In this document: one piece after another, positions 12,003 through 26,036 of the stretch
Position numbering within the stretch: position 1 is the stretch's first letter
Layout: each line of letters begins with the position of its first letter
From: Candidatus Peribacter sp.
GTDB taxonomy: Bacteria; Patescibacteriota; Gracilibacteria; Peribacterales; Peribacteraceae
Direction: 5' to 3'
NCBI GenBank assembly: GCA_018652955.1
Contig: JABIBA010000015.1
Location: forward strand, 1-41,544
DNA: 41,544 nucleotides
The notes under the pieces: generated by a model
Seen by the model: the letters and a program-made list of their open reading frames with translations, nothing else
Told to the model about the DNA's origin: nothing
Database searches by the model: none
Position numbers and translations under genes: made by a program

Positions 12003-15000
12003 TTAGCTGTTGTAGCTAGTAGACTTAACAGATGTCTCTGGGTATTCAATCCAAAGGAATCGAGCACCACTTGCGTACGTATTGAGTTGATCCTTATCAA
12101 TCCATTGTACGTGTGATCGAGTTGAGATAGCTCCCTGTGCACCGAATGTGGCAGCAGAGATATCATCGAATTCCTGAATAGAAACCTGGAGAACAGATAC
12201 ACCACCGTTAGCTGAAGCGCTGTTCGGGTTAGTGATATCTGCTTGAAGGACGTATGTAGCATCAGTACCTTCATCTACTTCAGTGTCTACAGTAGAAGCA
12301 ACTAGTCCTGCACATTCTACAAGGAGAGTACCTGAAGCTACACCAACAGCGAGACCGCTATCTGAGTAGTAATCAGTACATGTAACAGTCTTAGTCTGGT
12401 CAGCCTTGTTGTACATCTTAAATGAATCTGCAGTAATAGTTACGTTTGTTGCATTAACATTGAAGACTACACCAGAAAGCGTGACGTCGTTATCTCCGTT
12501 CTTAGAGTTTCCGTGAGCAGCAGCTGATACCTTGAACTGACCGATAGCAGAAATACCAGTTGGTACTGATGTACCGTTGGCATCTGGGTTAGCGTTGGTA
12601 ATAGATGTGATCTTAGAAAGAACAGAGAGGTTCTTGTTACCAGTAATAGTAGAGTTGCTGCTAGTGTTGCTGGTTACAGTTTCTGCACCAACGAAGATTT
12701 CACCTTCAGCTGTACCATCCTGGTCACTCATTGAGAGGTCGTTTGAAGACTCTCCACCGCGAGCTTGAACAACAATGTTGTTGTAAGTAGCGGCTCCTGA
12801 ACCGATCATAAGAGCGATGATTTGGTTGGATACTCCACCCTGTTCATCAGTCTTCATGCGAGGTCGGATGATAACATCGATGTCATCTCCATCAGGAATA
12901 ACGAGTTGCTGGTTTTCCATGTTTACACAGAAAGTGGTAACTGTACCTGAACCAACTTGGTCCTGAGTAGTACCACCAGAGGTAGCCTGCTTAGGGTTGT
13001 GATCAAGCTTTGTATCAGATCCACATCCACCCTTAGTTGCTTCTGCGAACTTAGTAGCTTCACCATCACGGTAGAGCTCCAATCGGTCGATAGAAGTAGC
13101 GGTAGATCCAGATGATGTGAACTGCAAGTCAGTTACATCAATATCTTCGTGCTCAGCGTGTAGCTCAAGACGGAGGATAGCCTCACCAAGAGTTCCACCA
13201 AGCAACTGACGGCTTCGTAGCGGCTGTGTGTCCTTAGTTACGAATAGGTCACCCTGGCTTCGGAGACTCCAAAGCTGAGAGTAAACAGTAGTCGTAATAA
13301 TGTCACATGAAGTCGCTGTAGTACCGTCTGTATCGAGACAGTTAGAAGTACCATTCGTCTGAATGTTACTTAGGTTTGAACCATCGTCGAGTTCTTCAGC
13401 CTCTACGTATGTAACGGTTGAACCAGTATCGAAACGGATTTCAAGATCGTTATTTGTAAGGCTAGATGAAACGTCAGAGTGTACCTCGAAGACTACAGTC
13501 TCCTCAGCAGGGATAACGTATCCACCACCAGCTAGATCGTTAAAGCTGATCTGGCTAGATTGTGATGCAACACCGTCCTCAAGGATAGTGTCAACTGAAC
13601 CGTCTCCATCGGTATCAACCCATAGAGCGTAGTTCTGACCATTGTTTAGAGATCCAGAAGCGGACTCGAAAATAGCCTTTGTGAAGAGAATATCTTCAGC
13701 TTCGCCAGCACGTGCCTCAAATCGGAAGAGGTTTACGTTCTTAGCGTTCTCAACCGCTGTGTCACCTGTACCAATCTCCTTAACGGCGATTGTTAGAGTA
13801 GCAGTAGCGATCTGGTGGAAGTTACCAGCGATGTTACCACGAGGGCGAACGTCACCTACCTTGTCACCAGTTGAAAGTCCTTCTACTTGCATTTGGTAGC
13901 TAGTAGTTGAAGTTACAAGAGTGTTGAAGTCACATCCAGTTGTGTTGGTTGTTAGAGCACCAGCAGAAAGGATGTGTGTTGGCTCACCACAAATGTGAAC
14001 ACGGAATTTGTCACCGTTTGAAGGGTGCTGGTCTGAACCGTTGTCAATGAAGTCAACACGGAACTCCCATGATTCGTCACCGCGAACGATGAAGTCATCG
14101 AAACGGTAAACCTGGTATGTACCAGCTTCAGTAGCTGTAGCTGATGTGCTACCAAGATCAGTAGATCCTGTTAGACGAACACCATCAATTGTACGACCAG
14201 TAGATTTGTTTCGGATTTCTACGTCCTCAAGAAGTTCGTGGATTTGGTTAGCAGTAGATGCACCACCTGTAAGGATGGAACCTGTGCTAGATGTACCCTG
14301 AACGAGGATGAAGAAGTCTTTAACGTCGATGTCTTCACCTCCAGTCTGGAAAGTGATGTTCGCAAGAACAGCATCGTTATCGTCACGTGTGTACTCCTCT
14401 TGTGCAGGACCGTCGATACCGATAGTGAATTCACCAGCGTCGATAGAAACTGTATCAGGAAGAGTGGATGTCTCGGAAGGCAGAGAAATCTGTGATCCGT
14501 AGAGCTGTCCGTTTACACCGTAACCGTAGAGAGAACCAACCGCAAAGAGGTCAGATGTCTCTTCAAAGTGCATAATGATTTGGTCTCCAGCACCACCAAC
14601 AACGTCAGCGATGATCTCAAGTGTGATCTTGTCACCCTCAAGAACGGTGAATGGAGGATCGAATACAACAGTAATAAAGTCACCAACAGTCTGTGAAACA
14701 GTGTTAGTAAGGATAGTACCGTCTGTTCGACGTACTGCAATGTTAACGAAGTCACCATCAGATGCAGAACTGTTCTGCTCCAAAGTCATGGAGTAGAAAG
14801 TCTGGTCTTCAGTTGAGTTAACAGAAACTTCGTACTTACCGATAACAACACCTACGTCACCAACCTCAACTTCATCAGGAGAGACAGATCGGTAAGTAAC
14901 ACTTACGATACCACTTGTTACAGCAGCCATTCGGAAAGTGTCACCACGAAGTGGGAAGTTACCTGCAACAGACTGAGCGTTTCCGAATACATCAGAAGGA

Positions 15001-16337
15001 AGCTCCACAACTAGGTTGTGTTCTGCTGAAGTAGAAGCAGTAGAAGAGAAGTCCATCACGATGTCCACTGTCACTGTCTCACATGGATCAAGGATCAAAG
15101 GAGAAGAGAAGCGAAGATCAGATGTCTGGTCTTCTGAGTCAATTGTGCGCTTACGTGTAACACGAGCGCCGTTTACAGCTGCGTAGATTCCATCGATGTC
15201 GACTTCGTCACCAAATCCTTCGTGAAGGATAGTGAGGTTTTCAACAGCAACAGAGTCATCACAAGAAGCAGTAAAGTCTACAGAGAGACCTACTACACCA
15301 ACTGCTCCTTTAGGAACAGTGTCTCCTACTGGGTTAGAAGCACCGAGCGAAAGCTCAAGTGTTCCGTCTCCCTGTACGAAAGCGGTGTAACCTGTGAATC
15401 CAACGCTGTCAGAAAAGACAGTGCCGTCAGCAGTCATAAGATCAGAAACTGAAAGAGTGTAGCTGTGTCCGGATTCCATAGCTTCACCAAGTGTGAGCTC
15501 AACAGTGCTTGTACCAAGAAGGTTAGCACTTGTTACAGGAACCTCAGGAGAACCAGTTACAGAGTAGTTAGCTGTGTCTTCTGCTGTTCCTTGGTCAAGA
15601 GTCATGTTGAACTCAATCTCAATTGTAGTAGAAGCAGTAGCAACTGCATCAGTAACCATTGGCTCACCGCTTACACCGCCTGTACCACAGTCAACTCCGT
15701 AAGAGAGACCTTGGTCAACACGGTAAAGCATTACAACCATCTCAGCACGGTTCATGTTGTCACCAGGACGAACACGGCCGGTAGAGTCGTCACCCTGAAG
15801 TACACAGTGGTCAGCCGCAGTCTGAATGACGTTGGTGTACCATTGTCCGCTTGGGTTATCGACGAACTGAGAAGCGTCGCCAGTTGGAGCAAGTCCAAAT
15901 GCGCGAGTAATGAGGGCAGCAGCTTCAGCGCGGTTAATGTTTGCGCCAGGACGAGAGTAGCAAGGGTGGCTGCCGTAGCAGTCGCCGTCACCACGAACCC
16001 ATCCCTCTTTACCTGCTTCCTCAAAGTAACCGTAATACCAGGCAGAAGTAGAAACGTCATCGAAGCTTGCAACAGCTGGAGGAGTGGAAAGAATTCCACC
16101 GTTCAGCTCTACAACCAACTTAACGAATTCAGCACGGTTGGCAGGGTTGCCACCGCGGAACCTAGCTTGTGTAGCATCGAGGTAACCTGCGTCAACGAAA
16201 GCGTTAACTGAGTCACCGTACCACACGCCCGCTGGAACATCGCTGTATGCTGCAAGCACTGTACCCGCTTGGGTAAGTGAAAGAGCTGCAACCGATACTC
16301 CTGCGAGGACTTTCTTCATTCGAAGAGTGAAGTCCAT
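12003..16337 (-). CDS. SLH-domain S-layer or major surface protein
   Basis: The 1444-residue exported protein begins with a signal peptide (MKKVLAGVSVAALSLTQAGTVLA, cleavage near residue 30). Three S-layer homology domains follow, roughly residues 31-80, 88-150 and 155-215, each with the AWYY/WYGD and NRAEFVKLV/NRAEMVVML signature that binds pyruvylated cell-wall polymers. A Big/Ig-like domain follows (MVTDAVATASTTIEIEFNMTLDQG onward). The remaining ~1100 residues are Thr/Ser/Asp/Gly-rich beta-type sequence with few Cys and almost no hydrophobic helices. The start at 16337 puts MDFTLR before the signal core; M at 16319 is an alternative. The size, position behind its own promoter and long leader suggest an abundant coat protein, but that is inference. 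Confidence 0.88.
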   Translation of the reverse strand: MDFTLRMKKVLAGVSVAALSLTQAGTVLAAYSDVPAGVWYGDSVNAFVDAGYLDATQARFRGGNPANRAEFVKLVVELNGGILSTPPAVASFDDVSTSAWYYGYFEEAGKEGWVRGDGDCYGSHPCYSRPGANINRAEAAALITRAFGLAPTGDASQFVDNPSGQWYTNVIQTAADHCVLQGDDSTGRVRPGDNMNRAEMVVMLYRVDQGLSYGVDCGTGGVSGEPMVTDAVATASTTIEIEFNMTLDQGTAEDTANYSVTGSPEVPVTSANLLGTSTVELTLGEAMESGHSYTLSVSDLMTADGTVFSDSVGFTGYTAFVQGDGTLELSLGASNPVGDTVPKGAVGVVGLSVDFTASCDDSVAVENLTILHEGFGDEVDIDGIYAAVNGARVTRKRTIDSEDQTSDLRFSSPLILDPCETVTVDIVMDFSSTASTSAEHNLVVELPSDVFGNAQSVAGNFPLRGDTFRMAAVTSGIVSVTYRSVSPDEVEVGDVGVVIGKYEVSVNSTEDQTFYSMTLEQNSSASDGDFVNIAVRRTDGTILTNTVSQTVGDFITVVFDPPFTVLEGDKITLEIIADVVGGAGDQIIMHFEETSDLFAVGSLYGYGVNGQLYGSQISLPSETSTLPDTVSIDAGEFTIGIDGPAQEEYTRDDNDAVLANITFQTGGEDIDVKDFFILVQGTSSTGSILTGGASTANQIHELLEDVEIRNKSTGRTIDGVRLTGSTDLGSTSATATEAGTYQVYRFDDFIVRGDESWEFRVDFIDNGSDQHPSNGDKFRVHICGEPTHILSAGALTTNTTGCDFNTLVTSTTSYQMQVEGLSTGDKVGDVRPRGNIAGNFHQIATATLTIAVKEIGTGDTAVENAKNVNLFRFEARAGEAEDILFTKAIFESASGSLNNGQNYALWVDTDGDGSVDTILEDGVASQSSQISFNDLAGGGYVIPAEETVVFEVHSDVSSSLTNNDLEIRFDTGSTVTYVEAEELDDGSNLSNIQTNGTSNCLDTDGTTATSCDIITTTVYSQLWSLRSQGDLFVTKDTQPLRSRQLLGGTLGEAILRLELHAEHEDIDVTDLQFTSSGSTATSIDRLELYRDGEATKFAEATKGGCGSDTKLDHNPKQATSGGTTQDQVGSGTVTTFCVNMENQQLVIPDGDDIDVIIRPRMKTDEQGGVSNQIIALMIGSGAATYNNIVVQARGGESSNDLSMSDQDGTAEGEIFVGAETVTSNTSSNSTITGNKNLSVLSKITSITNANPDANGTSVPTGISAIGQFKVSAAAHGNSKNGDNDVTLSGVVFNVNATNVTITADSFKMYNKADQTKTVTCTDYYSDSGLAVGVASGTLLVECAGLVASTVDTEVDEGTDATYVLQADITNPNSASANGGVSVLQVSIQEFDDISAATFGAQGAISTRSHVQWIDKDQLNTYASGARFLWIEYPETSVKSTSYNS

Positions 16338-16605
16338 AAGAATAAGGTGTAAAGAAAAATAAAAGACTATATAAGGAAGTATGTCTGAAAGATCTCTAAC
16401 AATCTTTGCTCTTGTGAGTAGAGAACGAATGATCGTCACTCTGCTCCTTATATATAAAGAGAGAACATGAGCTTAGGTAAGATTGGTTTTTGAGATTAAA
16501 CAAATATACAGAAAGCACGACGCATGGGGAGCTCTTAAATAAAGTGCTCTGCGTGTGAGAAACTTGTCTTACTCAAACGTTGGCTTGAGGTAAAGGCAAG
16601 GTGCC

Positions 16606-16734
16606 GGTGCGTAAAGGAGCGTGTACACGGATCAGACTCTATGGGGACATAGAGGCGGATCAGCGATATTTAAGCGTTCCTGAAGCATTTAAGCAAGGGC
16701 TACGCACTGATCCGTGCAATACCCCAAACGCACC
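16606..16734 (-). promoter_or_regulatory. structured 5' leader of the S-layer gene with alternative helices
   Basis: In the mRNA sense, GGTGCGT (16734-16728) can pair with ACGCACC (16612-16606) as an outer stem. Inside it, CACGGATCAG (16716-16707) can pair with CTGATCCGTG (16635-16626, 10 bp), or instead with CTGATCCG (16663-16656, 8 bp), or can fold locally as GCAC-GGATCA-GTGC. Between the two partner sites sits a perfect hairpin, CTCTATG-TCCC-CATAGAG (16654-16637). The three states exclude each other, as in a riboswitch or attenuator. Only an expression context on the minus strand is supported, by the TATAAT box upstream. An independent small RNA on either strand is possible. No known riboswitch class is recognised. 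Confidence 0.5.
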
Positions 16735-16778
16735 AGCAGGGGGTTTGTTACACAAAAAGGAAAGAAACTAATCGGGGA

Positions 16779-16784
16779 ATTATA
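16779..16784 (-). promoter_or_regulatory. -10 box for the S-layer gene
   Basis: A perfect TATAAT on the minus strand preceded by an upstream TG (ATGCT-TATAAT). A -35 hexamer is weak. Transcription would start near 16772 and give a leader of about 435 nt before the ATG at 16337. Confidence 0.45.
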
Positions 16785-16841
16785 AGCATATATTGCACCA
16801 AATAGCGTATTTCAATAATGATATCTTGAGAGAAAGGGGGT

Positions 16842-16868
16842 AAAATTGATCAATTTTGGACCAAAATT
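16842..16868. promoter_or_regulatory. two overlapping palindromes upstream of the S-layer promoter
   Basis: AAAATTGATCAATTTT (16842-16857) is a perfect 16-bp palindrome. It shares its right arm with AATTTTGG-A-CCAAAATT (16852-16868), 8 bp on each side of one base. The pair lies about 60 bp upstream of the TATAAT box and 80 bp after cysS. It looks like a double operator; a role in ending cysS transcripts is possible but there is no clean T-run. Confidence 0.45.
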
Positions 16869-16946
16869 TACTATTGCCAAAAGTGTAATTTGTGGTGTTC
16901 GGAAACAGGTAGCGCTAAGTAGAGCCAACATCTAGTTAGTAAAACC

Positions 16947-18344
16947 TTACATTTTGATGATTTCCTGCCCCTTTTCGCTGTCTTTGACCTCGAATCCTAG
17001 TGCTTGGATCTCATCTCGAAGGCTATCTGAGGCAGCGAAATCCTTATTAGAACGAGCTTCTAAGCGCTTGCTGGCGAGGTCTGATACCTCCTGTGGGATC
17101 TCCTGTGCTTCCTCTGGATCGAAGCATCCGAAGGTCTCCTGAATCATGCGTACAAACTCCTTACAAGATCCAAGCGTCCCCTCGTTGCGAGAGGAGGACA
17201 TCAGATCAAATACGACGGCCATAGCAGCAGGCGTATTGAGGTCGCTGTTCATAGCCTCTGCAAACTTCTGGTTAGACTCTTCTACATCTCCTGAGCCTTG
17301 AGCAGCGTCCACCTCCCCTACCCATTCGAGGATCTTTCGGCGCGCTTTGTGCGCATCTTCTAATCCCTTCTTTGTAAACTTCAAGTTCGTTCTGTAGTGC
17401 ACAGAAAGAAGATAGTATCGAAGGTCGAGGGGGCTGAAACCCATATTTTCTATATCAGGTAAACATAACACGTTGCCAAGACTTTTTGACATCTTGGTAT
17501 CTCCCATGTCGATGAATCTCTTGTGCACCCAGTAGTTCACATGTGGCTTACCGTCGCCACTTCCGACCGACTGAGCGATCTCACATTCGTGGTGTGGAAA
17601 AATTAAATCCTCTCCTCCGGTGTGAATGTCGAACGGTGACCCTAAAAACTTGTCACTCATACAGCTGCACTCGAGGTGCCACCCCGGAAAACCCTCTCCC
17701 CACTTACTGTCCCACCGCAAAATGTGATGCTCATTTTCACCGACACATTTTTTCCACAATGCGAAGTCTGCAGCGTTCTTCTTTTTTTCGTCGACGGCGA
17801 TGCGAGATCCCGATGATAAATTTTCTAACGTGTTGCCAGACAGTTTTCCGTACCCCTCAAAAGTAGTGACATCAAAGTACACACCGTCTTCAGTTTCGTA
17901 GGCGTGACCGCGGTCGATAAGTGTCTCGATCATCGAAAGCATTTCTGGAATAGTTTCTGTCGCGAGTGGTCGGTGTTCTGGCTCTCGAAAATTAAGGGCA
18001 TGTTCATCCCCAATATATTGCTCAGCATATTTGCGCGCGATACTCAACGGGTCAGTCTTCTCCTCACGCGATTGCCTTTCAATTTTGTCAGCACCTTCCG
18101 CGTCTGCGACGTCATCGCCTGCGAGGTGTCCTACATCCGTAATATTTTTTACGTGCGTTACAGCGTAACCAGACACTTCCAACCAGCGACGCAAAAGATC
18201 TGCGAGCAAGAACGAACTGTAGTTACCAATGTGTGGTCGCCCGTAGACTGTTGGCCCACATGTATACATGCGTACTTCCCCTTCTTTGATAGGTGTGAAA
18301 TCCTCCTCCTGTTTTGTAAGCGTGTTGTAGAGTCGAAGAGACAT
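16947..18344 (-). CDS. cysS: cysteinyl-tRNA synthetase
   Basis: The 465-residue class Ia synthetase charges tRNA-Cys. Near the N-terminus are CGPTVYGRPHIGN (the HIGH-type motif, with the first zinc Cys) and, near the middle, ECSCMS and HHECEI supplying further zinc ligands. The TKMSKSLGN signature (KMSKS) follows. The C-terminal DALR-type helical region ends in the usual short tail, so the protein is full length. The start ATG at 18344 gives MSLRLYNTLTKQ, which matches the family. The next gene upstream on the strand is the 70-residue unknown, separated by a strong terminator, so cysS probably has its own promoter in the 18345-18394 gap. Confidence 0.97.
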   Translation of the reverse strand: MSLRLYNTLTKQEEDFTPIKEGEVRMYTCGPTVYGRPHIGNYSSFLLADLLRRWLEVSGYAVTHVKNITDVGHLAGDDVADAEGADKIERQSREEKTDPLSIARKYAEQYIGDEHALNFREPEHRPLATETIPEMLSMIETLIDRGHAYETEDGVYFDVTTFEGYGKLSGNTLENLSSGSRIAVDEKKKNAADFALWKKCVGENEHHILRWDSKWGEGFPGWHLECSCMSDKFLGSPFDIHTGGEDLIFPHHECEIAQSVGSGDGKPHVNYWVHKRFIDMGDTKMSKSLGNVLCLPDIENMGFSPLDLRYYLLSVHYRTNLKFTKKGLEDAHKARRKILEWVGEVDAAQGSGDVEESNQKFAEAMNSDLNTPAAMAVVFDLMSSSRNEGTLGSCKEFVRMIQETFGCFDPEEAQEIPQEVSDLASKRLEARSNKDFAASDSLRDEIQALGFEVKDSEKGQEIIKM

Positions 18345-25863: not shown

Positions 25864-25938
25864 GGGGTTGTAGCTCAGTTGGCCCAGCCTGCCTCTGGCA
25901 GGCGTAATATAACTAGATCGCCCGCTCTAACCAACCCC
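25864..25938 (+). pseudogene. tRNA-Asp-derived hairpin (tRNA pseudogene or palindromic insertion)
   Basis: The first 19 nt (GGGGTTGTAGCTCAGTTGG) are identical to the 5' end of the functional tRNA-Asp 96 bp away. The other end (25923-25935) is an inverted copy of the tRNA D-arm stretch GTTGGTTAGAGCG. GGGGTTG and CAACCCC close it as a perfect 7-bp stem. The middle holds a perfect hairpin GCCTGCC-TCT-GGCAGGC (25887-25903) and an AT-rich loop flanked by GGCG/CGCC. There is no anticodon arm or T-arm, so it is not a working tRNA. Its 75-nt length is tRNA-like. Confidence 0.55.
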
Positions 25939-25959
25939 GTAATAGTATCGCTCACATGT

Positions 25960-26036
25960 GGGGTTGTAGCTCAGTTGGTTAGAGCGCCTCCCTGTCACGG
26001 AGGAGGTCGCGAGTTCGAGTCTCGTCAGCCCCGCCA
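25960..26036 (+). tRNA. tRNA-Asp(GTC)
   Basis: The 77-nt cloverleaf is clear: acceptor GGGGTTG/CAGCCCC with one G-U pair, D-arm GCTC...GAGC, anticodon stem CCTCC/GGAGG with loop CTGTCAC (anticodon GTC, Asp) and a TTCGAGT-type T-loop. It has discriminator G and an encoded CCA. G73 and the GTC anticodon are correct identity elements for aspartate. The last 18 nt are duplicated at 27586-27603, marking the gene as an integration target. Confidence 0.97.

Follow-up and report, generated by a model that had tools for sequence, protein, structure and literature searches.

A conserved structured element ahead of the S-layer gene in Peribacteraceae: a probable mRNA leader rather than a conserved bistable switch

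Introduction

Bacterial S-layer genes can carry long untranslated leaders, e.g., Thermus slpA and Lactobacillus slp. The locus described here, ahead of an S-layer gene in Candidatus Peribacter, resembles these systems as the probable long leader of a very abundant surface protein with a plausible role in stability or translation, but it is conserved and covaries across the whole family Peribacteraceae. Like riboswitches, it appears to be a structured 5′ leader RNA whose unpaired blocks are conserved, but it belongs to one gene in one family, matches no Rfam entry, and has neither a conserved alternative pairing nor a visible terminator. A weak A-U/G-U stem, in which CUCUUUA pairs with AAGGAG, recalls the fourU-type RNA thermometers. 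In those, the Shine-Dalgarno sequence of the gene is hidden in a weak stem, whereas here about 100 nt or more separate UAAGGAG from the start codon downstream and no Shine-Dalgarno sequence is found near the ATG. The element is also similar to 6S RNA in being about 200 nt long, structured, and essentially single copy, but it is locked to one gene, forms branched hairpins, and its genome gives no match to RF00013 (E ≤ 10).

Regulation in the Patescibacteria (CPR) has hardly been explored, and it is through the surface coat that such cells come into contact with others. We found no direct precedent in the open literature on Peribacteria RNAs or S-layer leaders, and the Peribacteria genome paper mentions S-layer genes just in passing (PMC4736985). 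The probable leader, kept across Peribacteraceae, a little-known family of tiny bacteria, has apparently escaped description so far. Here we present a family-wide element, unmatched in Rfam, that is probably a cis-acting structured leader of the S-layer mRNA.

Results

Genomic setting and conservation

The stretch analyzed (the window) comprises 41,544 nt of a 1.2 Mb genome assembled in 17 contigs and 99% complete; it begins with a 23S rRNA gene (1–2842, − strand) truncated by the contig end. The S-layer gene (Table 1) encodes a protein of 1444 residues that contains an SLH domain and possibly an Ig-like one, and its N-terminus reads as a signal peptide. Directly before its ATG the sequence is U-rich and without a Shine-Dalgarno motif, and such motifs are rare before the genes of the window.

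Table 1. Features of the S-layer locus, in window coordinates.
Feature	Positions	Strand	Basis
S-layer protein gene	12003–16337	−	ATG at 16337; ORF and translation; Pfam SLH domain; signal peptide
Hairpin CUCUUUA-UAUA-UAAGGAG, pairing up the Shine-Dalgarno-like UAAGGAG	16444–16461	−	Conserved box
Hairpin A, CAC-ATCC..GGAT-c-GTG type, here CACACGCA/TGCGTcGTG	16516–16557	−	Covariation, wobble pairs
H1, 3′ arm AAGACAAG	16563–16570	−	Covariation
H1, 5′ arm CTTGCCTT	16593–16600	−	Covariation; one C.A mismatch kept in most sequences
P3, 3′ arm CTGATCCGTG, conserved partner	16626–16635	−	Conservation, covariation, folding
Hairpin H2, CTCTATG/CATAGAG	16637–16654	−	Covariation and wobble pairs
Alternative 8-bp partner CTGATCCG, pairing not conserved	16656–16663	−	Covariation, folding
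P3, 5′ arm CACGGATCAG	16707–16716	−	Conservation, covariation, folding
Conserved structured element, ~205 nt	16549–16755	−	Model R1
Predicted 5′ leader of S-layer mRNA, about 539 nt, putative start	16338–16876	−	CAAC/CAAT box
Promoter-like boxes CTCTACTTAGCG and CACCACAAATTA, 15 nt apart	16886–16924	−	Weak two-block motif
cysS, cysteinyl-tRNA synthetase, conserved upstream neighbor	16947–18344	−	Pfam; synteny

A DNA search of 96 genomes, its own included, located the element in 15. A sequence-only model (R1) extended this to 63 of 74 Peribacteraceae genomes, or 54 of the 57 good ones, with no match in other families of the class. A structured model (R2) again matched 63 family genomes, at E ≤ 1e-14; beyond the family it gave just three matches (E about 0.002–0.005, 14–16 bits), which is chance level for that many genomes, and no match in a sample of the phylum. 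Aside from a few split or doubled matches the element is essentially single copy, and one genome with 5% contamination holds two full copies, both at S-layer loci. Nothing relevant from Rfam 15 (4227 families), at or near the gathering score, was found in the window, the leader, or 15 relatives.

The order cysS, element, S-layer gene was found in 55 of the 56 loci read; the remaining one (L102) is a short contig that ends at the element and carries no S-layer gene. Among 57 family genomes covered by both searches, the nine lacking the element are the same nine that lack a close S-layer orthologue (best E at or above 1e-71, vs at or below 1e-109 in the others). Missing contigs account for some of these absences, but for one of the nine genomes completeness is put at 100%. 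The element does not accompany the more distant SLH proteins that these family genomes encode elsewhere. The pairing of cysS with the S-layer gene is a conserved synteny in its own right, and fragmented assemblies lose linked loci together; linkage alone is therefore no proof of cis action.

Inverted repeats and covarying helices

Our starting point was a first-pass annotation of positions 16606–16734, which read the segment as a bistable switch in the S-layer leader. The inverted repeats that it described are present. A single GGATCAG (16707–16713, − strand) can pair with CTGATCC at 16629–16635, within a 10-bp helix (CACGGATCAG/CTGATCCGTG, hereafter P3), or with CTGATCC at 16657–16663, in an alternative pairing of 8 bp. 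The GGTGCGT/ACGCACC stem said to surround them (16606–16612 with 16728–16734) can indeed enclose everything, but in relatives it behaves much like shuffled columns (54/500 shuffles). On the − strand the 129-nt stretch folds at −53.6 kcal/mol, compared with −32.7 ± 3.3 for dinucleotide shuffles (z −6.3; 0/200), and folding of the + strand is about equal (z −6.1). The GGATCAG/CTGATCC-type heptamer is not enriched across the whole window (5 seen, 5.25 expected), and the signal therefore lies in the arrangement of the repeats.

The helix conserved in relatives is P3, which covaries together with H2, H1, and hairpin A. In a MAFFT alignment of 43 sequences, the share of cells with standard pairs is 67.3% for these four helices, compared with 63.3% when shuffled (0/500), and their covariation score of 0.216 exceeds both the shuffled value (0.165; 0/500) and slid-partner controls (0.07–0.13). 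A second, overlapping alignment of 36 sequences contains 68 doubly changed cells, compared with 41.7 after shuffling (0/500); the shuffles leave shared ancestry in place, and kinship among the sequences makes them easier to beat. Support is weaker for the inner half of P3 (54% paired) and for H2 (60%). We regard this covariation as good but not final evidence of structure. A further pairing, GCACG of P3 with CGTGC of hairpin A, is 89% paired with zero double changes; it hardly varies and is thus uninformative for covariation. The terminal stem TGTGA/TTACA was rejected, as its bases overlap hairpin A and it is unnecessary on the S-layer strand. Free folding of the whole leader gives a structure that combines P3, H2, H1, and hairpin A with the UAAGGAG hairpin. 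The segment very probably lies, as first annotated, within the leader of the S-layer gene and is part of a conserved structured RNA.

Extent of the leader and the UAAGGAG hairpin

The annotated start near 16772, giving a 435-nt leader, found no support, since its TATAAT is not conserved even among the closest relatives. A CAAC/CAAT box instead lies upstream of TGTAAC in relatives at a near-constant distance, mostly −121 to −131 and about −113 in one clade; from it we infer the start in Table 1. Farther upstream, about half of the relatives have a weak two-block motif, fitted with no shuffled control, near −172 of TGTAAC.

In the stretch from hairpin A to the ATG, each of the 61 leaders contains CUCUUUA, a short variable loop, and then the box UAAGGAG (55 leaders) or its variants UAAUGAG (3) and UAAAGAG (3). 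Of 48 element-bearing family genomes searched, 44 carry the pattern CTCTTTANNNNTAARGAG at the S-layer locus, and 96 genomes show it at only five other places. No conserved start codon adjoins the box. Given how scarce Shine-Dalgarno motifs are before the genes of the window, a perfect one concealed in a stem so far from the ATG is curious. A role as a −10 promoter was discarded, as the middle of the box is variable; at a guess, the hairpin might serve as a ribosome standby site or in loading control.

Discussion

A proposed leader and its rivals

As the likely reading, we favor a long 5′ untranslated leader of the S-layer mRNA that is folded, has the segment at its middle, and is kept in cis with one gene by Peribacteraceae. 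The element is family-wide, linked to the S-layer gene, and covarying, with no support for the alternative pairing, and is probably a structured 5′ leader rather than a conserved bistable switch. The RNA would adopt one dominant fold, in which P3 closes H2 and a variable hairpin, followed nearer the gene by H1, hairpin A, and the hairpin that hides UAAGGAG. Its likeliest job would be to control a very abundant surface protein after transcription, through mRNA stability or translation: the fold may guard the mRNA from decay, set ribosome loading via the paired UAAGGAG, or both, and a protein may bind the conserved unpaired residues.

Three other readings concern what the structure does. The first-pass annotation proposed riboswitch-like or thermosensor control, with one GGATCAG segment alternating between two CTGATCC partners. 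Both pairings do occur in the window and its genus, and the 8-bp partner is transcribed ahead of the 10-bp partner, which would make a transient fold possible. The two folds are mutually exclusive, but they are energetically far apart: the alternative is 7.1 kcal/mol worse than the P3 fold and has a pairing probability of 0.0003, whether the segment is folded alone or within the whole leader, making a two-state switch unlikely at equilibrium. In 43 relatives the 8-bp pairing is formed in 55.9% of cases against 55.8% when shuffled (261/500 shuffles), and both pairings are well formable in only 7 of 56 sequences. The annotation had named loss of both pairings in relatives as its refutation; the 10-bp pairing is preserved and the 8-bp alternative, the conserved expression platform that a riboswitch would need, is not. 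We accordingly rejected the latter, along with the enclosing stem, as conserved structure. No terminator-like site was seen within 16200–17000, nor any sign of ligand or temperature sensing by the segment, and we consider such a switch highly improbable. A repeat that looks strikingly bistable in a single genome can lose that appearance on comparison with relatives. Sensing of another kind, by an undescribed, lineage-specific class of cis-regulatory RNA in which a cue (metabolite, ion, or bound protein) would set S-layer synthesis with the paired UAAGGAG as output, strikes us as conceivable but doubtful. The palindromes might also merely resemble RNA structure and represent a conserved DNA element, i.e., regulator binding sites at the S-layer promoter, as the many palindromic and CAC/GTG motifs and the strong sequence conservation of the unpaired blocks could suggest. 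Compensatory changes in H1, H2, P3, and hairpin A that exceed all shuffles, variable loops on conserved stems, and an extent of several hundred nucleotides make this very unlikely.

The remaining rival concerns the strand. A separate small RNA of ~205 nt, encoded on the + strand, divergent from the S-layer gene, and acting in trans or antisense to the leader, was for a time favored on the basis of H1 and the folding energies; we now think it improbable. At one position of H1, amid otherwise varying pairs, 37 of 42 sequences hold an A.C mismatch that becomes U.G on the + strand, contrary to expectation if the S-layer strand is transcribed. The terminal TGTGA/TTACA complementarity likewise reads as G-U on the + strand, mean folding energy is slightly lower there (46/61), and near-universality in the family as an essentially single-copy element would suit an independent RNA. 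Most other variable pairs, however, favor the − strand. Over the helices read on that strand, G-U wobbles number 154 vs 126 A-C, or 153 vs 89 once the H1 column is set aside as hardly variable, a choice made post hoc; by pairs the count is 19 vs 9. Pair 4 of hairpin A, read on the + strand, gives 7 C.A and zero T.G, and the CUCUUUA/UAAGGAG stem changes between U.G and U-A; both favor the S-layer strand. The box at near-fixed distance and the weak promoter-like motif lie upstream on the − strand side, by inspection no consistent promoter-like site precedes the + strand 5′ end, and the element is always tied to one gene. Folding z-scores do not differ between the strands and were dropped as a strand test. 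It was the wobble counts of hairpin A, H2, and P3, together with the upstream motif, that demoted the + strand RNA. Several lines of evidence, none decisive alone, thus make it quite likely that the S-layer strand is the one transcribed.

The S-layer leader, with its defined conserved structure across a family, offers a testable handle on the control of a major surface gene, and models R1 and R2 make it recognizable in further Peribacteraceae genomes.

Other candidate identities and RNA features

A repeat or mobile element was rejected as an identity for the conserved element, which has one copy in its own genome and whose exact pattern is absent from viral contigs. Known housekeeping RNAs were likewise set aside: small SRP RNA (RF00169) and 6S RNA, either of which may be divergent, gave no match in the genome at E ≤ 10, and tmRNA and RNase P were both located elsewhere than the element. 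On the + strand of the window, a sequence resembling the 5′ half of a tRNA (25864–25945) lies just upstream of tRNA-Asp at 25960, and the same pattern (L037) precedes a tRNA on another contig (C2) of the same genome.
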